64,000 nucleotides of DNA from Prevotellaceae bacterium KH2P17 (lineage in GTDB: Bacteria > Bacteroidota > Bacteroidia > Bacteroidales > Bacteroidaceae), in contig FZRE01000013.1 in assembly GCA_900199655.1 (NCBI GenBank), forward strand, positions 1 through 64,000, given 5' to 3'. The notes under the pieces are model-generated. The model did no database searches, was not told where the DNA came from, and saw nothing but the letters and a program-made list of their open reading frames with translations. Below, in pieces: positions 6,400 to 62,133 of this stretch. The position numbers and the translations under genes are program-made. The first letter of the stretch is position 1, and each line of letters opens with the position of its first letter.

Positions 6400-6469
6400 G
6401 AACTTTTGACACTTGTCGCACAATCGTGTGACACCTGTCGAATAATCGTGCGACAAGTGTCGAAAGTTC
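6400..6469. repeat. 70-bp triple-dyad element, copy 2
   Basis: Three GACAnnTGTC dyads at 22-bp spacing between outer arms GAACTTT and AAAGTTC, lying between the 3' ends of convergent genes ald and hisB. The left arm carries TTGAC in place of TTCGAC. The right flank CCTGAAG resembles the flank module of other copies. Confidence 0.9.
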
Positions 6470-9514: not shown

Positions 9515-11767
9515 TTGAAGTTTATTATATTACATAAATCATCTTTTCTAAAAGGGTGCAGTAAGGAGATTGCGCCCTTGTTTTTAGGGCTTATTACTGT
9601 TCTTATTGCCTCGTGCAGTGCTACCAAGTTTGTGCCTGATGACAGTTATCTGCTGGAGAAGGTGCAAATCAGGTCGGAACAGAAGAAGTTTCCCGTTTCG
9701 GACCTTGCTCCCTACATCCATCAACAGGCCAACAGCCGCTGGTTCAGCTTGTTCAAGATACCCTTGGGAACGTATGCCTTGGCTGGCAAAGATACCACAA
9801 AGTGGATGAACAGAACCCTGCGGCGCATCGGAGAAGAGCCTGTTGTGTTTGATTCCGTGCAGGCCCGCCTGTCCTGTCAGGACCTTACTACGGCTATGCA
9901 GAACATGGGCTACATGCACGCTGCCGTGGATCTGAAAACCAAGAGACATGGTAAGAAACTTACGGCCATATACCTCTTGCGGCCGGGCGAGCCTTACTAC
10001 ATTCACCATGTGGCCTATGATGTCCAGGATGACAGCATTGCCGCCTTGCTGCAACTTGACAAACCTGAGAATCAGCAGCTGCGGGCCGGCTCACAATTTA
10101 CCGTTGCACGCCTGAATGAAGAGCGCCAGCGCATTACCACTCTCTTGGTTAACAGCGGCTACTACCGCTTCCATAAGGACTATATCCAGTTCAGTGCCGA
10201 CTCTGCTCGTAACAGTCAGGACGTGAACATCACCCTGCACTTGCTGAAATACAGGGCCAACAGCAGTTCGCCCGAAACACTCCATCCGCGATACAACATC
10301 AGCGGGGTACGATTTATGAGTGGCGACGAGGACGAGCAACTGCACCTCCGGCAGAAAGTACTCGAGTATAATACCGCCATAGAACCAGGCAAATACTACA
10401 GTGCTGCCGACTTGCAGAAAACTTACCACAACTTTGGCAAGCTGCAGGCCATACGCTACACCAACATCACTTTCCGCGAACATCCCGATACAACGCTGTT
10501 AGACTGTGATATTCAGCTGTCTACCAACAAACCTTCAACTATTTCTTTTCAGCCCGAAGGTACCAATACGGCAGGCGACCTGGGCGCTGCAGCCACGCTG
10601 ACTTATACCAACAAGAACCTGTTCCACGGCTCCGAGATGCTGAGCATCGCCCTGCGTGGCGCCTTTGAGGCCATTACGGGACTGGAGGGATATAAGGACC
10701 AGAATTATCAGGAATACAGTGTTGAGACCAAGCTGACGTTTCCTCGCTTTGTTGCTCCGTTCCTATCGCGCTCATTCCGGCGTCGGAGTCAGGCAACAAC
10801 CGAGTTGGCCGTGAGCTGGAATCTGCAAAACCGGCCCGAATTCCATCGGCGAGTATTCTCCACGGCATGGCGCTACAGATGGGCCGAACCTCATCACCAC
10901 ATCTCTTACCGCCTCGACTTTCTCGACCTGAACTATGTCTACATGCCCTGGATAAGCGAGACTTTTAAGCACGATTACCTGGAAAGCGCCAGCAGCCGGA
11001 ACGCCATTTTGCGCTACAACTACGAAGACCTGTTTATCATGAAGATAGGTTTCGGACTTACTTACAGCGACGGCGAAAACTCCGTACGCGCCAATGTAGA
11101 GACTGCCGGCAACCTCTTGGATGCAGTTTCGCGCGCCTCTGGCTTCAAGATAAATGACAACGGGCAGCGTACGTTGTTCAATATTGCCTATGCGCAATAT
11201 GCAAAATTCGATTTCGACTATACGCACCTGTTCCAGTTCGACAGCCACAATGCACTGGCACTGCATGGCGGTTTCGGCATAGCTTACCCCTACGGCAACA
11301 GCAAGGTGCTGCCGTTTGAGAAGCGCTATTTCTCGGGCGGAGCCAACTCCGTGCGCGGGTGGAGCGTAAGAGGACTGGGGCCGGGCAAGTTCAGGGGCAG
11401 CGATGGCCGGATAGACTTCATTAACCAGACCGGCGACATGAAGCTGGACTTGAATGCGGAGTACCGAACCTTCCTGTTCTGGAAGTTCAACGGAGCGGCT
11501 TTCATCGATGCCGGAAACATCTGGACACTGCGTAACTACGCAGAACAACCGGGCGGTCAGTTCAAGCTAAAGGATTTCTACAAGCAGATAGCCGTTGCTT
11601 ACGGATTGGGATTGAGGCTGAATTTCGATTACTTCATCCTGCGTTTGGATATGGGCATGAAAGCCATCAATCCGGCTTATCGCACCCAGCAGGAGCATTA
11701 TGCCATCTTCCATCCCAAGTTCAGTCGCGACTTCTCATTCCATTTTGCAGTAGGATTGCCGTTCTGA
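9515..11767 (+). CDS. tamL: TamL-like outer-membrane assembly lipoprotein (Omp85 family)
   Basis: About 750 residues. A lipobox (LIASC) is followed by POTRA-like repeats (about 30-320) and a C-terminal Omp85 beta-barrel with the conserved GGANSVRGWSVRGLGPGKF segment. TamL is the lipidated Bacteroidetes relative of TamA, which works with TamB in the outer membrane. I place the start at TTG 9515 because it follows the TATCTTTG box at 9488-9495 and gives a short signal peptide; no in-frame ATG lies between the promoter and the lipobox. No tamB gene is adjacent. The barrel end (HFAVGLPF) has the usual terminal aromatic residue. Confidence 0.85.
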   Translation: MKFIILHKSSFLKGCSKEIAPLFLGLITVLIASCSATKFVPDDSYLLEKVQIRSEQKKFPVSDLAPYIHQQANSRWFSLFKIPLGTYALAGKDTTKWMNRTLRRIGEEPVVFDSVQARLSCQDLTTAMQNMGYMHAAVDLKTKRHGKKLTAIYLLRPGEPYYIHHVAYDVQDDSIAALLQLDKPENQQLRAGSQFTVARLNEERQRITTLLVNSGYYRFHKDYIQFSADSARNSQDVNITLHLLKYRANSSSPETLHPRYNISGVRFMSGDEDEQLHLRQKVLEYNTAIEPGKYYSAADLQKTYHNFGKLQAIRYTNITFREHPDTTLLDCDIQLSTNKPSTISFQPEGTNTAGDLGAAATLTYTNKNLFHGSEMLSIALRGAFEAITGLEGYKDQNYQEYSVETKLTFPRFVAPFLSRSFRRRSQATTELAVSWNLQNRPEFHRRVFSTAWRYRWAEPHHHISYRLDFLDLNYVYMPWISETFKHDYLESASSRNAILRYNYEDLFIMKIGFGLTYSDGENSVRANVETAGNLLDAVSRASGFKINDNGQRTLFNIAYAQYAKFDFDYTHLFQFDSHNALALHGGFGIAYPYGNSKVLPFEKRYFSGGANSVRGWSVRGLGPGKFRGSDGRIDFINQTGDMKLDLNAEYRTFLFWKFNGAAFIDAGNIWTLRNYAEQPGGQFKLKDFYKQIAVAYGLGLRLNFDYFILRLDMGMKAINPAYRTQQEHYAIFHPKFSRDFSFHFAVGLPF

Positions 11768-11780
11768 AATTGTTCAGGAG

Positions 11781-11850
11781 GAACTTTCGACACTTGTCGC
11801 ACAATCGTGTGACACCTGTCGAATAATCGTGCGACAAGTGTCGAAAGTTC
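11781..11850. repeat. 70-bp triple-dyad element, copy 3
   Basis: The most symmetric copy: the outer 22 bp on each side are perfect inverted repeats, starting GAACTTTCGACACTTGTCGC. Three dyads are at 22-bp spacing. It lies between convergent genes (tamL and the 11879 lipoprotein). The right flank, 11851-11872, is a fourth, weaker dyad related to the flank of copy 1. Confidence 0.92.
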
Positions 11851-14180: not shown

Positions 14181-17012
14181 TCAGAGTTTCTCTTTCAGGT
14201 ACTTGCCCGTTATGCTTCCCTTGCAGGCTGCTATGTTTTCAGGCGTTCCGGCACATACCAGGCCGCCTCCCTTGGCACCACCGTCGGGTCCCAAGTCAAT
14301 AACCCAGTCGGCGCACTTGATGACATCCATGTTGTGTTCAATGACTATAACGGAGTGTCCGCGCTCTATCAGTGCGCTGAAAGCATGGAGCAGCTTCTGT
14401 ATGTCGTGGAAGTGGAGTCCCGTTGTTGGCTCGTCGAAGATGAAGAGGCTGGGCTCCTGTTTCTCCTGTCCAATGAAGTAGGCCAGTTTAACGCGCTGGT
14501 TTTCGCCGCCGGACAGCGTACTTGAGTTCTGTCCGAGCTTGATGTAGCCCAGTCCAACTTCCTCAAGCGGCTGCAAACGGGTAACTATATTCTTCTGTTT
14601 ATACGTATTGAAGAAGGCTATAGCTTCTGAAACGGTCATGTTCAGCACATCGTTGATGTTCTTCTCATGGAACCTCACGTCCAGTACATCGTGCTTGAAG
14701 CGTTGTCCGTGGCAGGCTTCACACTCCAATACAAGGTCGGCCATGAACTGCATCTCAACCGTAATGACGCCAGCCCCCTTACATTCCTCGCACCTGCCTC
14801 CTTCTGCATTGAATGAGAAATACTGCGCCGAGAACCCCAACTGCTTGGCCAGAGGCTGCTCGGCAAACAGCTGCCGGATGGCATCATATGCCTTTACGTA
14901 GGTTGCCGGATTGGAACGCGTACTCTTGCCGATAGGGTTCTGGTCAACGAATTCTACGTGTTTGATGTGTTCCCAGTTTCCTTCCATGGTGATGTACTCG
15001 CCCGGAATGTCGGCAACTTCATCAAGATGACGTTTCAGGGCAGGGTAGAGGATGCCCTTGACCAAGGAAGATTTGCCCGATCCGGAGACACCAGTAACAA
15101 CGGTGAGCACATTCAGCGGGAACTTAACGTCAATGCCTCGCAGGTTGTTCATGCGTGCCCCTTTAATCTCAACGGCCATGTTCCAGCTGCGCCGCGACTT
15201 GGGCGTGTCAATCGTTTCAGTCCCTGTAAGGTATTTGATGGTGTAACTTCGGGGGTATTTCTTCAGGAGTTCGTCGTTCTTCAGTGTCTTGTTTATCTCT
15301 TCGGTGTCACCTTCAAATACGATTTCACCGCCGTTTGTGCCCGCATCAGGCCCCACATCAATCAGATAGTCGGCTGCACGCATGATTTCTTCGTCGTGCT
15401 CCACCACCATCACAGTATTGCCGAGACTCTGCAAATCCTTCAGAACATGGATGAGCCTGTCGGTATCCCGGCTGTGGAGACCTATGCTCGGTTCGTCAAG
15501 AATGTAGAGAGAACCGACGAGAGAACTGCCGAGAGACGTTGTGAGACTAATTCTTTGAGACTCGCCACCCGACAATGTATTCGATTGCCGGTTCAGCGTG
15601 AGATAGCCCAAACCTACCTCATTAAGGAATTGCAGACGGCTTTTTATTTCCGTGAGCAGTCGTTTGGCCACGTCGGCGTCATGCTCGCTGAGTTGGAGAG
15701 AGCTGAACCACTCAGTCAGATTGGTTATAGGCATCTCTACCAAATCCGTTATGCTCATGCCGTTAATCTTCACCCATGTGGCTTCTTTCTTCAGGCGCGT
15801 GCCATGACAGTCAGGACAAGTTGTCTTGCCTCTGTATCTGCTCATCATGACACGGTACTGTATCTTGTACTGGTTCTCCTTTACCATCTGGAAGAAGCTG
15901 TCAATCGAGACCTGGTCGTGGATGTCGAGTTTCGCTTCCGAAGGCAGCCCATGCCACAGCTGGTCCTTCTCTTTACGCGAAAGTTCAAAGTACGGCTTGA
16001 ATATAGGAAAGTTATCCCGCTGTGCCCTGCGGCAGAATTCGTCCTGCCATATCTTCATCTTGTCGCCATGCCAGCACTGCACGCAACCGTCATAAACACT
16101 GAGCGTAGAATTGGGGATGACGAGTTTCTCGTCAATGCCGATGATATTGCCGAACCCCTCGCATGTAGGACAGGCGCCAAGTGGCGAGTTAAAGGAGAAC
16201 ATATTGTCGTTTGGTTCCTCGAACTTCATGCCGTCGGCTTCGTACTTGGTTGAGAATTCATAGCACAGATTAGACGGCAGGAACATGAGCTTGCACCTTC
16301 CGTCGCCCTCGTACATGGCCGTTTCGGCGGAGTCCACGAGTCGTGAGAGCTCGCTCTTCTCGTCAGACACGCTCATCCTGTCTATGACTATATAGATTTC
16401 TTTGTCCCGGATGCCGTCCTCGTTGCCGCCTGCCTCTTCCAGAACGTCGTCTATTCGCTTCACTTCCCCGTCCATTAACAGGCGCGAGTAACCCTCCTGA
16501 AAATCCATTTCGAGCTGCTTCAGAACCGTTCTTCCTTCGGTTATGTGCAGCGGAGCCAGCACCATGAACTTGGTACCTTTGGAGAATTGCCGCGTACACT
16601 GTATGATATCTTCGGTAGAGTGCTTCTTAACTTCCTGCCCGGATATAGGCGAGTAGGTCTTGCCAATGCGCGCGAAGAGCAGGCGCAGATATTCATATAT
16701 CTCGGTAGAGGTGCCTACGGTGGAGCGTGGATTGCGCGCTATGACTTTCTGCTCGATGGCTATGGCCGGAGGCAAGCCTTTGATGAAATCGCATTCGGGC
16801 TTGCTCATGCGGCCTAAAAACTGGCGGGCATAGCTCGAAAGAGATTCTACATACCGCCTCTGTCCCTCGGCGTACAGCGTATCGAAGGCCAATGACGACT
16901 TGCCGGAGCCTGAAACACCTGCAACGACAATGAACTTGTTTCGTGGTATCCGCAAGTCTACGTTCTTCAGATTGTTGGCTCTCGCTCCCTTTATCTCAAT
17001 ATATTTATCCAT
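14181..17012 (-). CDS. uvrA: Excinuclease ABC subunit A
   Basis: A 943-residue damage-recognition ATPase of nucleotide excision repair. Two ABC modules are visible: the first Walker A VSGSGKSSLAFDTLYAEGQR and signature LSGGESQRI; the second GVSGSGKSSLVKGIL and LSGGENQRVKLA. Zinc-binding cysteine pairs occur (CPTC, CPDCHG, CEECKGAG...CEACHGQ). The start MDKYIEIKGARANNL at 17012 is the conserved N-terminus; a minus-strand promoter lies just upstream (17038-17068). The long open frames antisense to it are codon-bias shadows. Confidence 0.97.
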   Translation of the reverse strand: MDKYIEIKGARANNLKNVDLRIPRNKFIVVAGVSGSGKSSLAFDTLYAEGQRRYVESLSSYARQFLGRMSKPECDFIKGLPPAIAIEQKVIARNPRSTVGTSTEIYEYLRLLFARIGKTYSPISGQEVKKHSTEDIIQCTRQFSKGTKFMVLAPLHITEGRTVLKQLEMDFQEGYSRLLMDGEVKRIDDVLEEAGGNEDGIRDKEIYIVIDRMSVSDEKSELSRLVDSAETAMYEGDGRCKLMFLPSNLCYEFSTKYEADGMKFEEPNDNMFSFNSPLGACPTCEGFGNIIGIDEKLVIPNSTLSVYDGCVQCWHGDKMKIWQDEFCRRAQRDNFPIFKPYFELSRKEKDQLWHGLPSEAKLDIHDQVSIDSFFQMVKENQYKIQYRVMMSRYRGKTTCPDCHGTRLKKEATWVKINGMSITDLVEMPITNLTEWFSSLQLSEHDADVAKRLLTEIKSRLQFLNEVGLGYLTLNRQSNTLSGGESQRISLTTSLGSSLVGSLYILDEPSIGLHSRDTDRLIHVLKDLQSLGNTVMVVEHDEEIMRAADYLIDVGPDAGTNGGEIVFEGDTEEINKTLKNDELLKKYPRSYTIKYLTGTETIDTPKSRRSWNMAVEIKGARMNNLRGIDVKFPLNVLTVVTGVSGSGKSSLVKGILYPALKRHLDEVADIPGEYITMEGNWEHIKHVEFVDQNPIGKSTRSNPATYVKAYDAIRQLFAEQPLAKQLGFSAQYFSFNAEGGRCEECKGAGVITVEMQFMADLVLECEACHGQRFKHDVLDVRFHEKNINDVLNMTVSEAIAFFNTYKQKNIVTRLQPLEEVGLGYIKLGQNSSTLSGGENQRVKLAYFIGQEKQEPSLFIFDEPTTGLHFHDIQKLLHAFSALIERGHSVIVIEHNMDVIKCADWVIDLGPDGGAKGGGLVCAGTPENIAACKGSITGKYLKEKL

Positions 17013-17239: not shown

Positions 17240-17313
17240 GGCTCCGTAGCTCAACTGAATAGAGCATCTGACTACGGATCAGAAGGTTCCGGGTTTGAAT
17301 CCCAGCGGAGTCA
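17240..17313 (+). tRNA. tRNA-Arg (anticodon ACG), first copy
   Basis: A 74-nt cloverleaf: acceptor GGCTCCG/CGGAGTC, D arm GCTC/GAGC, anticodon arm TCTGA-CTACGGA-TCAGA with anticodon ACG (read as ICG after A34 deamination), T arm CCGGG-TTTGAAT-CCCAG. CCA happens to follow directly (17314-17316). The T loop has T at position 56 and the D loop A at 19, so the usual G19-C56 pair is replaced by a potential A19-U56. T-stem pair 50-64 is C-A, a mismatch. Confidence 0.95.
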
Positions 17314-17344
17314 CCAAGTTCGTTATTTGCAACCAAAACGGTTA

Positions 17345-17418
17345 GGCTCCGTAGCTCAACTGAATAGAGCATCTGACTACGGATCAGAAGGTTCCGGGTT
17401 TGAATCCCAGCGGAGTCA
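17345..17418 (+). tRNA. tRNA-Arg (anticodon ACG), second copy
   Basis: Identical over all 74 nt to the first copy and separated from it by 31 bp, evidently a tandem duplication transcribed from the same promoter. Here the 3' end is followed by CAA, so CCA must be added enzymatically. A terminator follows at 17420-17446. Confidence 0.95.
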
Positions 17419-17513: not shown

Positions 17514-17583
17514 GAACTTTCGACAAGTGTCGCATTTATATTCGACAAGTGTCACACAATCGTGCGACAAGTGTCGAAAGTTC
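17514..17583. repeat. 70-bp triple-dyad element, copy 4
   Basis: Same length and outer arms as the other copies, but the interior reads best in the opposite orientation: its reverse complement aligns with copy 1. Three GACAnnTGTC dyads at 22-bp spacing, preceded on the left by GCTGAAGctATGCTCCG, the flank module. It lies between the tRNA terminator and the convergent maeB 3' end. Confidence 0.9.
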
Positions 17584-23149: not shown

Positions 23150-23157
23150 TATATTTG
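23150..23157 (+). promoter_or_regulatory. -7 box of the DUF4301 gene
   Basis: TATATTTG, with TTTC 20 bp upstream as a near-consensus -33. Its position rules out the in-frame start at 23155 and supports the ATG at 23197. Confidence 0.55.
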
Positions 23158-23196
23158 TGGCACATTTACCTGGAACATGATATAAACCTAATAATT

Positions 23197-24714
23197 ATGC
23201 TTTCTAACAACGACTTGAAACAAATCTCCCTGCGCGGGATTACAGCGGAGCAAGTAAATCACCAGCTTGAGCAGATACGGACGGGCTTCCCTTTCCTCCG
23301 ATTGGAAGCTCCTGCGGCTATCGGCAAGGGCATCATGGCGCCCGACAACAACGAACGCGATGCCTACATAACGGCATGGCAGGATTATAAACAGGCCGGA
23401 CACAAGATTGTGAAGTTTGTCCCGGCATCGGGAGCGGCCAGCAGAATGTTCAAAGACATGTTCGCTTTTCTGGATGCCGACTACGATGTACCCACTACGG
23501 ACTTCGAGAAACAGTTCTTTGACAACATCAAGAAATTCGCTTTCCGCGAGGCTCTGTGCGACAAGTGCAGGCAGAACACGGGCAAGAGCATCATGGAGTT
23601 GATACGCGACGGAGAGTATAAAGCCGTAGTGGACAACATGCTCAACGCCGAAGGACTTAACTACGGACGCTTGCCCAAGGGCTTGTTGCTATTCCACAAC
23701 TATGACGACGGGCCGCGTACATCGATGGAAGAGCACCTGGTTGAGGCCGCCCTTTACGCCGACAGCAATGCCGAAGCCAACGTACACTTCACGGTGAGCC
23801 ACGAGCACTTGGAACTCTTCAAGCAGAAAGTGGCCGAAAAGGCCGAATTCTATGCCAGGAAATACGGAGTGAAATACAACATCTCCTTCTCCGAGCAGAA
23901 ACCTTCTACCGACACGATAGCCGCCAATCCCGACAATACTCCTTTCCGCAATGCGGACGGCTCGCTGCTCTTCCGCCCCGGAGGGCATGGTGCGCTGATA
24001 CAGAACCTCAACGAGATAGATGCTGATGTGGTGTTTATCAAGAATATAGACAACGTTGTGCCCGACCGGCTGAAGGACGATACCGTTACTTACAAGCAGC
24101 TCCTGGCAGGCATACTCGTAACACTGCAGGCCCAGGCGTTTGAGTTTCTGCGCATACTCGACAGCGGAGCCTACTCGCATGCACAGCTGGAAGAGATGAT
24201 TCGCTTTGTTCAGCGCGACCTGTGTTGCCGCAAGCACGATATCAAAGAACTGGAGGATGCCGAACTGGTGAGCTACCTGCGCACCAAACTCAACAGACCC
24301 ATGCGTGTGTGCGGCGTGGTGAAGAATGTTGGAGAGCCTGGCGGCGGACCGTTCCTCACCTACAATCAGGACGGAACTGTGAGCCCGCAGATACTCGAAT
24401 CGAGCCAGATAGACAAGAACAACCCCAGCTACGTGCGCATGTTTACCGAGGGAACGCACTTCAATCCGGTAGACCTTGTATGCGCAACCAAGGACTACAA
24501 GGGCCATAGGTTCGATTTGCCTAAGTTCGTTGACGCCGCAACGGGCTTCATCAGCAACAAGAGCAAGGACGGAAGAGAACTGAAAGCACTGGAACTGCCC
24601 GGCTTGTGGAACGGCGCCATGAGCAACTGGAGCACGGTGTTCGTAGAGGTTCCGCTGTCTACCTTCAATCCGGTAAAGACCGTGAACGACCTGTTGCGCG
24701 AGCAACATCAGTAG
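23197..24714 (+). CDS. DUF4301 family protein
   Basis: A 505-residue soluble protein matching the Bacteroidetes family DUF4301. Recognisable blocks are FVPASGAASRMFKDMFAFL, PKGLLLFHNYDDGPRTSMEE, HFTVSHEHLELF, FRPGGHGALIQNLN and the C-terminal VEVPLSTFNPVKTVNDLL. The PASGAASRMFK and GGHGALI blocks resemble the nucleotide loop of sugar-phosphate nucleotidyltransferases, so a related fold is possible, but no activity is established. The start at 23197 (MLSNNDLKQ) follows the promoter box at 23150-23157. Confidence 0.8.
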   Translation: MLSNNDLKQISLRGITAEQVNHQLEQIRTGFPFLRLEAPAAIGKGIMAPDNNERDAYITAWQDYKQAGHKIVKFVPASGAASRMFKDMFAFLDADYDVPTTDFEKQFFDNIKKFAFREALCDKCRQNTGKSIMELIRDGEYKAVVDNMLNAEGLNYGRLPKGLLLFHNYDDGPRTSMEEHLVEAALYADSNAEANVHFTVSHEHLELFKQKVAEKAEFYARKYGVKYNISFSEQKPSTDTIAANPDNTPFRNADGSLLFRPGGHGALIQNLNEIDADVVFIKNIDNVVPDRLKDDTVTYKQLLAGILVTLQAQAFEFLRILDSGAYSHAQLEEMIRFVQRDLCCRKHDIKELEDAELVSYLRTKLNRPMRVCGVVKNVGEPGGGPFLTYNQDGTVSPQILESSQIDKNNPSYVRMFTEGTHFNPVDLVCATKDYKGHRFDLPKFVDAATGFISNKSKDGRELKALELPGLWNGAMSNWSTVFVEVPLSTFNPVKTVNDLLREQHQ

Positions 24715-24786
24715 CAGTATCTGTTGCATCAGTGCCCTCCGTAGGCTCCGCCGGTCTGCTAAGGCATTGTCAAATACACCTTTCGG

Positions 24787-24856
24787 CAACTTTTGACAAG
24801 TGTCGAACAATCGTGTGACACTTGTTTAATAATCGTGTGACACTTGTCGAACGATA
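24787..24856. repeat. 70-bp triple-dyad element, copy 5 (degenerate)
   Basis: The three dyads remain (centres 24799.5, 24821.5, 24843.5) but the outer arms are worn: CAACTTT on the left and no AAAGTTC on the right. It runs in phase into the following 22-bp array, whose first dyad is centred at 24864. It lies between convergent DUF4301 and clpC genes. Confidence 0.85.
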
Positions 24857-25043
24857 AGGAGACCATCTCCTTACAACAGTGAGGCCATCTCACTACAACA
24901 GTGAGGCCATCTCACTACAACAGTGAGGCCATCTCACTACAATAGTGAGGCCATCTCACTACAATAGTGAGGCCATCTCACTACAACAGTGAGGCCATCT
25001 CACTACGACAGTGAGGCCATCTCACTACGACAGTGAGGCCATC
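24856..25043. repeat. 22-bp tandem hairpin array
   Basis: Seven complete 22-bp units AGTGAG-GCCAT-CTCACT plus a linker TACAAC, TACAAT or TACGAC, then a half unit ending at 25043. The arms and loop are invariant; only the linker varies. The first module (24856-24872) has different arms, AAGGAG-ACCAT-CTCCTT: two base pairs differ and both are compensated. There are no spacers, so this is not CRISPR. Confidence 0.92.
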
Positions 25044-25091
25044 AATTGTATGCAGAAAGAGCAGGATAGAGCACTTAGGCAGATAGAACGC

Positions 25092-25128
25092 AAAAGGCGT
25101 GCAACCACAATCAAGTTGCACGCCTTTT
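25092..25128. terminator. Hairpin at the clpC 3' end
   Basis: A perfect 14-bp stem AAAAGGCGTGCAAC/GTTGCACGCCTTTT with a 9-nt loop, 4 bp past the clpC stop. It has A/T-rich ends on both strands and could terminate in both directions. Confidence 0.85.
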
Positions 25129-25132
25129 AGGT

Positions 25133-27670
25133 TTATTTGAACGTAAGTTCGTCTTTCGCCGGGTTCTTCCCTATGGCGATGGTGTCGCCGGGATGAACAT
25201 CGCCGGATAGTATCTTCTCGCACAGGCCATCTTCGATGTAGTTCTGGATGGCTCGCTTCAGCGGACGGGCTCCAAACTGGACATCGTAGCCCTTGGAGGC
25301 CACGAACTCTTTGGCCTTGTCGGTTATGGAGAGATGATAGCCCATGTCCTCAATGCGCTTGAAAAGAGACTTCAGTTCTATGTCGATAATCTTCTTGATG
25401 GCGTCCATGTCCAGCTGGTCGAAGGTGATGATTTCGTCCAGGCGGTTCAGAAACTCTGGCGCGAACTGCTTGCTCAGGCTCTTCTGAATGATGGAGCGGG
25501 CGTATTCCTTGTCGCTCTCGTTCAGGCTCAAGCCGAGCGTTCCGTTGGCATTGAAGCCTATGCCGCGCCCAAACTCCTTGAGCTGGCGGGTTCCCGCGTT
25601 GGATGTCATGATGATGACGGTGTTGCGGAAGTCAACCAGTCGGCCGTTTCCATCGGTCAGTCGGCCCTCATCCAACACCTGGAGCAACAGGTTGAACACG
25701 TTTCCGTGCGCCTTCTCTATTTCGTCCAGCAGCACAATGGAGTAGGGATGGCGGCGTACGCGCTCCGTCAGCTGGCCTCCTTCTTCATATCCCACATATC
25801 CGGGAGGTGCTCCGATGAGCCTTGATACGTTGAACGACTCTGTGTATTCGCTCATGTCAATGCGGATAAGCGAGTCGGTTGAACCGAACATAAACTCGGC
25901 CAGCTTCTTTGCCAGATACGTTTTGCCGACGCCGGTCGGGCCCAGGAACATGAATGCACCGATGGGGTGGTTGGGCTCCTTGAGGCCTACGCGGTTACGC
26001 TGGATGGCTTTCACCATCTTGTCGATTGCCGGATCCTGGGCAATGACGGCCTGTTTCAGCTCGGCTGCCATGCCTTTCAGCCTTGTGCCTTCGGCTTCGG
26101 CCATCCGCTGCACGGGTACACCGGTCATCATGCTCACTACGTCGGCCACGTCTTTCTCGGTAATGACCTCGCGGTTGTCGGTATCTCCCTTGGTCCAGTT
26201 GTCCTGCATCTGCTGCAGTTCTCGCTCCAGTTCGGTCTGTTTGTCTCTGAAACCTGCGGCCAGTTCGAAGTTCTGGTTCCTCACGGCAGCCTGTTTCTTC
26301 TCCTTTATTTCATCTATCTGCTTCTCTTTGTCAGTAATTTCCTGCGGAACCTTGGCGTGCTGCAGGTGTACGCGGGAGCCTACCTCGTCGAGTGCATCAA
26401 TGGCTTTATCGGGGAAGAACCTGTCAGTTATATACCTTTCTGTCAATTTGACACAGGCTTTCAGTGCGTCATCAGTGTACGAAACGTGGTGATGTTGCTC
26501 GTACCGGTCTTTGATGTTCTCCAGTATCTGGAGCGTTTCGTCGGTCGTGGTGGGCTCGATGAGAATCTTCTGAAATCTGCGTTCCAGCGCTCCGTCTTTC
26601 TCAATGGAGTTGCGGTATTCCTCCAGCGTGGTGGCGCCAATGCACTGTATGGTTCCGCGGGCAAGCGCCGGCTTCATGATGTTGGCCGCATCCATGCTGC
26701 CCGGAGTGCTTCCGGCACCGATGAGGGTGTGTATCTCGTCTATGAAGACGATGATGTCCGGGTTCTGTTCCAGCTCCTTGAGCAGGGCTCGTATGCGCTC
26801 CTCAAATTGTCCGCGGTACTTGGTTCCTGCCACAATGGCGGTCATGTCAAGGCTTACAAGCCGCTTATTGAACAGTATGGGCGATGTTTGGTGCTTGTTG
26901 ATGAGTTGTGCCAGCCCTTCTACAATGGCACTCTTGCCAACGCCCGGCTCACCTATGAGGATGGGGTTGTTCTTCTTTCGGCGTCCCAGAATTTCGGTCA
27001 CGCGCATTATCTCCTTGTCACGGCCGACTACGGGGTCGAGCTTTCCTTCGGCTGCAGCCTGCGTAAGGTCAGTCGAAAAGTTGTCGAGCACCGGCGTCTT
27101 GCCGTTTCCCTTGCGGGTTTGAGTTGTGGTATGGGCCTGTGTACCGCCGTCACTTGATTTGGAAGACTTCCACTGTTCGTCGTTCACTTCCTCGTCTTCG
27201 TCAGGCAGTCCGATACCGTCTTGTATGGTTTTGGCTTCCTTGTGCAGCAGTGTCAGCGTGTCCTCGTAGTTCATGTTGTTGAATTCCAGAACCTCCTTGG
27301 CACCGTTGTTCACTTGGTCATGCAGGATGGCAAGCAGCAGATGCTGCACGTCAACCATCTGAGTGTGCTGGATGCGGGCTTCAAGAACTGCGAGTTTCAG
27401 AATGTTGCTGGCTTTTTCGTTGAGCACGAGCTCGGTCGTCTGAAGCGGTTCTCCTATCTCGTCCTGACGTACACGCTGCTCCAGTTCTTCCTTTACAGCG
27501 TCTATGTTCACGTCCAAACGGCGGAACAAATCAATGATAAGGCCGTTTCTTTCACGGATGATGCCAAGCAGCAAGTGCTCCGGACCAACCGAACGGCTGG
27601 CCAATCGCGTTGCTTCCTCACGTGAAAAGGCGAGTATCTCAGACACTTTGGGTGAAAATTGACTGGTCAT
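25133..27670 (-). CDS. clpC: ClpC-type AAA+ protein-unfolding ATPase
   Basis: An 845-residue Hsp100 unfoldase that feeds substrates to ClpP. Double Clp-N repeats (about 1-145), AAA-1 with Walker A GEPGVGKSAIVEGLAQ and Walker B IIVFIDEIH, a middle coiled-coil with UVR-type segment, AAA-2 with GPTGVGKTYLAKKLAEF, and a C-terminal small domain. The start MTSQFSPKVSEIL at 27670 is fixed by a full promoter (27706-27737). The 3' end abuts a hairpin and then the 22-bp arrays. Confidence 0.95.
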   Translation of the reverse strand: MTSQFSPKVSEILAFSREEATRLASRSVGPEHLLLGIIRERNGLIIDLFRRLDVNIDAVKEELEQRVRQDEIGEPLQTTELVLNEKASNILKLAVLEARIQHTQMVDVQHLLLAILHDQVNNGAKEVLEFNNMNYEDTLTLLHKEAKTIQDGIGLPDEDEEVNDEQWKSSKSSDGGTQAHTTTQTRKGNGKTPVLDNFSTDLTQAAAEGKLDPVVGRDKEIMRVTEILGRRKKNNPILIGEPGVGKSAIVEGLAQLINKHQTSPILFNKRLVSLDMTAIVAGTKYRGQFEERIRALLKELEQNPDIIVFIDEIHTLIGAGSTPGSMDAANIMKPALARGTIQCIGATTLEEYRNSIEKDGALERRFQKILIEPTTTDETLQILENIKDRYEQHHHVSYTDDALKACVKLTERYITDRFFPDKAIDALDEVGSRVHLQHAKVPQEITDKEKQIDEIKEKKQAAVRNQNFELAAGFRDKQTELERELQQMQDNWTKGDTDNREVITEKDVADVVSMMTGVPVQRMAEAEGTRLKGMAAELKQAVIAQDPAIDKMVKAIQRNRVGLKEPNHPIGAFMFLGPTGVGKTYLAKKLAEFMFGSTDSLIRIDMSEYTESFNVSRLIGAPPGYVGYEEGGQLTERVRRHPYSIVLLDEIEKAHGNVFNLLLQVLDEGRLTDGNGRLVDFRNTVIIMTSNAGTRQLKEFGRGIGFNANGTLGLSLNESDKEYARSIIQKSLSKQFAPEFLNRLDEIITFDQLDMDAIKKIIDIELKSLFKRIEDMGYHLSITDKAKEFVASKGYDVQFGARPLKRAIQNYIEDGLCEKILSGDVHPGDTIAIGKNPAKDELTFK

Positions 27671-27705
27671 ATATCTTTTTACCTTTCTTCTATAGTTATA
27701 CTTCA

Positions 27706-27737
27706 CAAAAATAAACAATCATTTGATAGTGAGCAAA
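27706..27737 (-). promoter_or_regulatory. clpC promoter
   Basis: On the minus strand TTTG (complement of 27734-27737), 20 bp, TATTTTTG (complement of 27706-27713). The predicted leader is about 28 nt to the ATG at 27670. No CIRCE-type repeat is visible. Confidence 0.75.
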
Positions 27738-32074: not shown

Positions 32075-32167
32075 CGCCGTGGCGAAGCTGTCGTTCAAGA
32101 CTGTTGAAGGATAGCTTCAAGCGCCTTGAACGGCAGCATCAAGCGCCTTGAAGAATAGCTCTTTAAA
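32075..32167. repeat. 22-bp dyad array between ftsY and the Dcu gene
   Basis: Dyads CGCC-gt-GGCG (centre 32079.5), TTCAA-gactg-TTGAA (32101), TTCAAG-CGC-CTTGAA (32123) and ATCAAG-CGC-CTTGAA (32145) follow at 21.5-22 bp; TTTAAA centred at 32164.5 may be a fifth, weaker module. The sequence differs from the 70-bp family, but the period and the 12-15-bp dyads are alike. The remaining intergenic DNA (31902-32074 and 32170-32260) shows no gene. Confidence 0.75.
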
Positions 32168-38931: not shown

Positions 38932-39001
38932 GAACTTTCGACACTTGTCACACATATCTGTGACACTTGTCGAACAATCGTGCGACACTTGTCAAAAGTT
39001 C
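38932..39001. repeat. 70-bp triple-dyad element, copy 6
   Basis: Outer arms GAACTTT and AAAGTTC, three dyads at 22-bp spacing; the first and last carry TGTCA in place of TGTCG. The left flank is GCCTTCAG. It lies between the convergent transglycosylase and clostripain-like genes. Confidence 0.9.
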
Positions 39002-45607: not shown

Positions 45608-45677
45608 GAACTTTCGACACTTGTCGCACGATTGTTTGACAAGTGTCGAATTCATGTGCGACAAGTGTCGAAAGTTC
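45608..45677. repeat. 70-bp triple-dyad element, copy 7
   Basis: Three dyads centred at 45620.5, 45642.5 and 45664.5. The left flank is a perfect 7-bp dyad CCTGAAG-TTATC-CTTCAGG (45590-45608) centred at 45599, making four modules in phase. It lies between co-directional rnz and aspS. The remainder of the 416-bp intergenic region to 45859 shows weaker dyads but no gene. Confidence 0.92.
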
Positions 45678-48795: not shown

Positions 48796-48865
48796 AAACT
48801 TTTGACAAGTGTCAAACGATCGTGCGACAAGTGTCGAATTCTTGTGTGACACTTGTCGAAAGTTC
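48796..48865. repeat. 70-bp triple-dyad element, copy 8
   Basis: Dyads at centres 48808.5, 48830.5 and 48852.5, with a fourth flank dyad GAAG/CTTC centred at 48874.5, all 22 bp apart. The first is TTTGACAAGTGTCAAA, where both arms changed relative to TTCGAC/GTCGAA, a compensated pair. It lies between co-directional genes (48386 and manC). The rest of this 305-bp gap holds only the manC promoter. Confidence 0.9.
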
Positions 48866-61892: not shown

Positions 61893-62133
61893 AAAAGGCA
61901 GGAGAGCCCTCCTGCCTTTTGTAATATAAAAAGGGTTGCACGACGATGTGATGAAAACTCCGAGTTTAAAAGATTTGAGAGTTTCCCGCCTTTGTAATCC
62001 ACCGATGCCGAAGCATTTAGTTGCAGATGCAATTTATGTGGCCCGCCATGAGCAAAAGAAGCCTTCTCGGTTTTCAATTTAATTTGATGAGTATCCCTAT
62101 CGAATCGATACAACCCCAATAGCTAACTCCTTT
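61893..62133 (-). ncRNA. Structured, terminator-ended leader upstream of ribE
   Basis: Transcription is expected from a minus-strand promoter (complement of 62140-62171). The RNA has several hairpins: UAUCG-AUU-CGAUA, UUGCA-UC-UGCAA, AUGC-UUCG-GCAU (a stable tetraloop) and AAACU-CGG-AGUUU. It ends in a perfect 12-bp terminator stem AAAAGGCAGGAG-agcc-CTCCTGCCTTTT (61893-61920). This is riboswitch or attenuator architecture. The FMN riboswitch consensus is not recognisable. A 79-codon minus-strand frame covers it but lacks an ATG. Confidence 0.55.

Follow-up and report, generated by a model that had tools for sequence, protein, structure and literature searches.

The array at positions 24787-25043 of the window, that is, of the whole 64,000-nucleotide stretch of Prevotellaceae bacterium KH2P17 analysed here, is not a lone curiosity but one of many strings of 22-base units that lie between genes in the Prevotella group. 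In this genome such modules are dispersed and stand in register, several classes mix within single strings, and some modules are chimeric; an excess of the 22-bp period is seen in the sampled Prevotellaceae. The array is best filed as a modular intergenic repeat of the REP/BIME kind, for which PINSR and BrickBuilt are the nearest described systems. We give a probability of roughly 55% to the reading that these are REP/BIME-like modular repeats that grow by recombination and whose arms are re-matched at the level of DNA.

In that reading, the array would be one of the non-coding repeats that the sampled Prevotellaceae carry between genes, all made of imperfect dyads whose axes lie 11 bp apart, 22 bp being the full unit. 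Short strings of modules, such as the GACA element and the PINSR-like element described below, may seed new strings through a dispersal that resembles transposition or conversion, and strings would gain or lose whole 22-bp units through unequal recombination or through slippage during replication. Exchange within modules would yield chimeras, and template switching between arms could produce re-matched stems and, sometimes, inverted loops. The route of expansion, the repair of the arms and the lack of an essential host function are what we infer from these patterns. Neutral copying alone does not explain why 22 bp stays fixed amid the turnover of letters, and this constancy is the unexplained and interesting part.

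The array at the DUF4301/clpC junction

The neighbour of the array on the left is a DUF4301 gene and that on the right a clpC-type gene, both recognised by their Pfam domains. The features of the junction are as follows, with no strand assigned to the repeat modules:

23155-24714, plus strand, DUF4301 gene
24768-24789, degenerate outer 22-bp module to the left of the GACA element, in phase
24795-24848, three GACA/TGTC modules of the dispersed GACA element (24795-24804; 24817-24826, degenerate; 24839-24848)
24856-24872, AAGGAG-ACCAT-CTCCTT module, 20.5 bp from the centre of the last GACA module
24878-25026, seven identical AGTGAG-GCCAT-CTCACT modules of period 22 (TRF)
25032-25043, half unit AGTGAGGCCATC, read from the sequence
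25091-25129, minus strand, intrinsic-terminator-like hairpin directly downstream of the clpC-type gene and apart from the array, the sole terminator-like site in 24600-25250
25133-27718, minus strand, clpC-type gene

The make-up that an earlier note gave for this array, with three GACA/TGTC modules, one AAGGAG module, seven AGTGAG modules and a half unit in phase, can be read directly, and the centre-to-centre steps are 22, 22, 20.5 and then 22 bp onward. Its count of 11 complete modules holds only if the second GACA module, which is degenerate and ends in TGTT, is included. It was also right that the AAGGAG/CTCCTT and AGTGAG/CTCACT stems differ at two pairs (stem pairs 2 and 3) and that both changes are compensated; the loop differs as well (ACCAT vs GCCAT), a point absent from that note. 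Within the array only the linker varies, as had been claimed: the seven 17-mers are identical, and the 5-base linkers among them read ACAAC, ACAAT or ACGAC. The TRF score of 321 for 24859-25043 is the highest among the 11 TRF rows in the window. The AAGGAG/AGTGAG string occupies the place where the right outer module of the GACA element would be expected.

The Rfam matches above gathering score in the window were Bacteroidales-1 and two tRNAs, none on the array, and its linkers, 5 bp long and recurring, are not the unique spacers between direct repeats that define a CRISPR. As for the wider distribution of the junction, the closest DUF4301 protein among 298 other genomes of the genus is 82% identical, the named relatives, as judged by ClpC, are Prevotellaceae and at most 83% identical, and clpC was found near DUF4301 in none of 29 related loci (tblastn, E<=1e-5; loci extending no more than 1.5 kb beyond the gene, several of them less). 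In this material neither an empty site nor a difference in copy number among strains came to light, which counts against the recombination reading. The exact tandem AGTGAG pattern occurred in one of 200 genomes of the genus, that of KH2P17 itself, and not in a wider contig collection from which records near the KH2P17 genome may be missing; searches of plasmid and phage collections likewise gave no match.

The GACA element and its surroundings

The GACA element is dispersed, with 28 copies in 464 kb (the window plus twenty 20-kb stretches), and a genome-wide search with its pattern gave 744 matches, compared with 20 for the control pattern, in a count that takes in both strands and adjacent modules. 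Beyond the 28 elements, dyad symmetry peaks 21.5 bp outward (z 4.8; 130 half-base offsets), and conservation fades outward stepwise, in 22-bp steps (56 arms). An AGTGAG array adjoins a GACA element in phase in the window and at two other loci, L015 and L016. The element scan placed further copies in the window, each of three modules and with no strand assigned:

148-201, GACA element
6408-6461, GACA element, convergent genes on either side
11789-11842, GACA element, convergent genes on either side
17522-17575, GACA element
38940-38993, GACA element
45616-45669, GACA element
48804-48857, GACA element

The window also holds, at 17240-17418 and 61928-62115 respectively, two adjacent tRNA genes near a GACA element and a Bacteroidales-1 (6S-like) RNA. 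C-rich repeats of the CACCCATCACCCA type occur elsewhere (L066:13385-13438, L069:10396-10466, L072:13125-13331 and 15861-16070), and those in L066 and L072 join a GACA element directly, at the same junction.

Stem classes across the KH2P17 genome

The AGTGAG unit has 63 matches in the genome with at most two mismatches, which we grouped into 12 arrays, while the reversed control pattern has none. Several arrays mix AGTGAG, AAGGAG, TTGAAG and CTATG-loop modules in register. Other classes form arrays of their own, for instance TTGAAG-GATAG-CTTCAA at 32104-32160 of the window (2.6 units of period 22 by TRF, no strand assigned) and TTACCA-CTATC-TGGTAA elsewhere in the genome. This one genome contains at least five stem classes. 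When AGTGAG, AAGGAG and GACA sequences were masked, 38 intergenic 6-5-6 dyads 22 bp apart were left, against 2.4 in ten dinucleotide shuffles.

A composite element of about 440 bp is common to four loci, and three further places match much of its length at 64-75% identity. In its copies (L010, L011, L019, L020, L061:8650-9046, L078:4313-4731), homogeneous modules are central and diverged, in-register modules lie outward, a layout that looks as if units were inserted at the centre. A separate intergenic family has periods of 44 and 66 bp, multiples of 22, and contains ACTCTGTTACTCTGT and CAGCAGCAG or their complements (L060:18763-19219, L066:8118-8329 and 10873-11038, L070:9127-9246, L073:9200-9334).

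The 22-bp period in Prevotellaceae and outgroups

We measured self-similarity at lags of 15-30 in intergenic regions between 100 and 2500 bp long, with a base-permutation threshold that was equal for all lags. In KH2P17, 49 of 141 regions gave a signal at lag 22, compared with 0-9 for each of the lags 15-21 and 23-30. Nine other Prevotella genomes together gave 39 of 256 regions at lag 22 (5-17 at each of the other lags); the figure for 80 named Prevotellaceae loci was 69 of 403 (9-30), and that for ten outgroup genomes 6 of 241 (4-21). The outgroups come from other families of the order, class and phylum, and the sample holds no sister genus of the same family. In these ten genomes there is no excess at 22 bp, and in the sampled Prevotellaceae there is one, in sequences of unrelated letters.

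The TRF rows show a similar distribution. Period 22 makes up 50 of the 59 rows of period 18-26 in KH2P17, 32 of 60 in the nine Prevotella genomes, 43 of 84 in the 80 loci (27 of which have such rows) and 3 of 43 in the outgroups; the lengths searched were 462, 792, 1475 and 800 kb, respectively, and since rows may overlap these are not counts of arrays. Two further genomes gave 4 rows in 100 kb (G061) and 18 in 200 kb (G084); G045 had none in 100 kb. A weaker sign is the mean identity at lag 22, with z of 2.9-6.2 for KH2P17, G024, G016 and G136 and -0.0 to 1.9 for the other six of ten Prevotella genomes. Thus, the earlier claim that independent sequence classes share one period is borne out at 22 bp by the masked dyads, the TRF rows and the lag scan. 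Candidates for the same kind of module in other Prevotella, as 22-bp arrays of unrelated sequence, are L203:12195-12322, L180:21799-21904 and L171:19097-19209.

Such constancy might suggest a symmetric DNA-binding protein that occupies one half-site per approximately 11 bp, side by side, its contacts holding the spacing while the letters drift together with the protein. Axes 11 bp apart in unrelated sequences and the lag-22 excess in the sampled Prevotellaceae would fit such a protein, as would a period that is steadier than stem or loop length, and a conserved core with a free linker, although the modules were gathered by core similarity. Nevertheless, at least five stem classes in one genome are awkward for a single sequence-specific protein, and most of the relatives sampled show only weak dyad symmetry. 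Furthermore, period 22 is favoured over 21 in KH2P17 (50 vs 4 TRF rows), and therefore plain B-DNA phasing is not the reason for the spacing. We regard the protein array as possible but on the unlikely side.

Stem pairing, chimeras and covariation

The earlier note had argued that the structure is selected, or else that one mechanism expands any 22-bp dyad. Pairing within KH2P17 is imperfect: the 12 arrays hold 80 modules, of which 58 pair perfectly, 3 depart from this by G-U pairs only and 19 are mismatched. The mismatched group includes 3 array-edge or half units and 6 chimeras that combine AGTGAG with CTCCTT or AAGGAG with CTCACT, leaving both variable pairs non-Watson-Crick. Mean column entropy is lowest in the loop (approximately 0.17 bit), followed by the stem (0.43) and the linker (1.16), an order favoured by the gathering of modules through core similarity. 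If nothing but the stem-loop were selected, the loop should be unconstrained, and thus the loop, with the same collection bias, speaks against this part of the argument. Among 150 adjacent in-phase pairs of dyads, counted with no chance control, the loop is repeated in 93 and inverted in 8, and the remaining 49 show neither relation; the small number of inversions counts against the recombination reading.

Between species, stems change in both arms around a conserved core. The tandem GAG-RCCAT-CTC core was detected in 8 of 297 genomes of the genus, including KH2P17, and its reversed control in 5 of 297 (G121 and G506 among them); the single matches in G044, G506 and G091 may be due to chance, those in KH2P17, G136, G285, G260 and G121 being firmer. 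The stems read CAGGAG/CTCCCG in G121, AAAGAG/CTCCTT in G136, TCAAAG/CTCTGA in G260, and AGTGAG/CTCACT and AAGGAG/CTCCTT in KH2P17. The outer stem pairs played no part in detection; of their 36 consensus cells, 28 are Watson-Crick, compared with 16.9 when the arms are permuted (P 0.0004, a permutation that keeps relatedness), in a set that includes G091 and both KH2P17 classes. With only the six species that have at least three modules, the figures are 19 of 24 and 11.2 (P 0.008, relatedness again not removed). Such covariation would fit selection too. Matching arms would be expected even in the absence of selection, from template switching between inverted repeats (PMC8794818), the marks of which are spacer inversion and arm matching (PMC8604942, PMC8794818). 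Selection of structure is thus favoured by the co-varying stems and opposed by the 19 mismatched modules with their 6 chimeras. Expansion of any 22-bp dyad by one putative mechanism fits better.

In most of the other species sampled, dyad symmetry is weak. In a circular symmetry test on TRF units, which is underpowered, 16 of 43 units reached p<0.05 in KH2P17, compared with 2 of 27 in other Prevotella, 5 of 32 in the named loci and 0 of 3 in the outgroups. Dyads of 6-5-6 form 22 bp apart, relative to shuffles, numbered 1 and 0.7 in G260, 2 and 1.0 in G045, 3 and 1.2 in G024, and 10 and 0.4 in G016, so that only G016 of these four relatives has a clear excess, and an array run finder detected a single array in 400 kb of the same genomes. 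These results speak against a dyad structure common to all of them.

Genomic placement and RNA signals

With genes called by a simple codon model of our own, 49 of 55 sampled TRF arrays are intergenic, the other 6 being in coding sequence or at an edge (period 21, 22, 23, 44 or 66, hence of mixed kinds). The 49 lie between convergent (23), tandem (23) and divergent (3) genes, for which 42, 121 and 39 regions were available.

An array of RNA hairpins in the 3′ ends of mRNAs, acting as terminators, stabilisers or pause sites, could also account for paired stems. The region 24715-25135, in which the clpC hairpin is included, folds strongly (z -9.28 vs 100 shuffles), and the consensus modules of the six species pair in 24 of 24 cells once G-U is allowed on the ATGGY strand (permuted mean 15.8, P 0.008). 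On the GCCAT strand, A-C cells outnumber G-T cells by 84 to 21 across species. However, these cells are related by copying and therefore represent few events, and the ratio in KH2P17 alone is 7 to 8. Wobble polarity was considered as proof of the transcribed strand and rejected, since within a single composite element the modules do not agree, those with CTATG having the opposite polarity. Moreover, placement does not depart from what intergenic length predicts (chi-square p 0.16), arrays in tandem pairs are not closer to the upstream 3′ end (12 of 23), and hairpins have no need of a fixed 22-bp spacing. On balance, we consider a role as RNA hairpins unlikely.

Relation to known repeats and mobilisers

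REP and BIME sequences are short intergenic palindromes of high copy number, with regular spacing and alternating orientation, that form mosaic strings. The KH2P17 arrays resemble them in all these respects; they differ in that the 22-bp spacing holds even where the sequences are unrelated, and in showing no consistent association with Y1 transposases. RAYTs act on dispersed palindromes, and mobilisation by a Y1 (RAYT/TnpA-REP, IS200-like) transposase is a further conceivable reading. The KH2P17 genome encodes one IS200/IS605-family Y1 protein, and Y1 matches occur together with period-22 rows in KH2P17, G016, G117, G121, G194 and G061. However, the flanks of the KH2P17 Y1 gene carry no modules, five of the 12 genomes compared (G260, G024, G136, G249 and G084) have period-22 rows and no Y1 match, and G045 presents the converse, with two Y1 matches and 100 kb devoid of period-22 rows. 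Y1/RAYT is thus not supported as a common factor, and we regard such a mobiliser as very unlikely. Beside the sole IS200-like transposase gene lies a different repeat, which contains GCATGCCAGCGAGAGAGCG and occurs twice (L021:1100-1330).

Among the matches listed from open-licence PMC papers, we found no literature on a 22-bp Prevotella repeat beyond PINSR and BrickBuilt. PINSR is described as a lineage-specific, intergenic, non-coding repeat of Prevotella with 177-184 copies and a 188-bp consensus, reported downstream of tnaA. The Prevotella genome G084, with two chromosomes of 1.97 and 0.71 Mb, carries a repeat of about 190 bp with 287 candidate places, and all 40 of the 40 that were scored match most of the 191-base query. 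Because a copy is found 242 bp downstream of tnaA (tryptophanase TnaA), this repeat is probably PINSR, to judge from place and from similar length and copy number rather than from the published letters. Its consensus has dyad axes every 11 bp, with 35 of 48 pairs in the best run of six axes (500 shuffles: mean 19.3, maximum 27) and 19-23 pairs at the other periods from 8 to 14. The KH2P17 repeats resemble PINSR in being intergenic, non-coding and abundant in a Prevotella lineage, while section 3.4 of the PINSR account describes no 22-bp modules. The G084 repeat has no match in the KH2P17 genome and is unrelated in sequence to the array. Stem and loop lengths vary by family, and since the G084 modules look approximately 6-3-6+7 and not 6-5-6+5 as in KH2P17, it is the spacing, and not the shared stem-loop geometry that had been proposed, that is the common feature.

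BrickBuilt, a MITE minisatellite of Porphyromonas gingivalis, is described as species-limited, with 19 loci, a 23-nt period and predicted stem-loops (PMC4596501), and the same paper refers back to earlier accounts of 22-nt repeats from strain W83 (PMC4596501). The likeness lies in dispersed intergenic tandem repeats with predicted stem-loops, whereas the unit is of 23 nt rather than 22 and many classes stand in register here (PMC4596501). BrickBuilt is further described as having a non-repeat leader and tail and, in some copies, IS5-like terminal inverted repeats (PMC4596501); GACA elements have GGAAC/GTTCC arms and a gradual loss of conservation outward.

Biological meaning

The constant 22-bp spacing in unrelated sequences points to a physical cause, either a protein or a copying process. 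We would tentatively entertain, as a doubtful but real possibility, that Prevotellaceae possess an as yet undescribed machine of one or the other kind that reads or writes intergenic DNA in dyad steps of 11 bp. If this were true, it would hold the 22-bp spacing as module sequences turn over from one species to the next, and roughly a third of the scanned intergenic regions of KH2P17 (49 of 141) would bear its traces. Repeats that have been described singly, species by species, of which PINSR is a likely example, may belong to one modular system that is recognisable by its period, and this system is a natural test of whether compensatory changes in stems arise by selection or by template switching.
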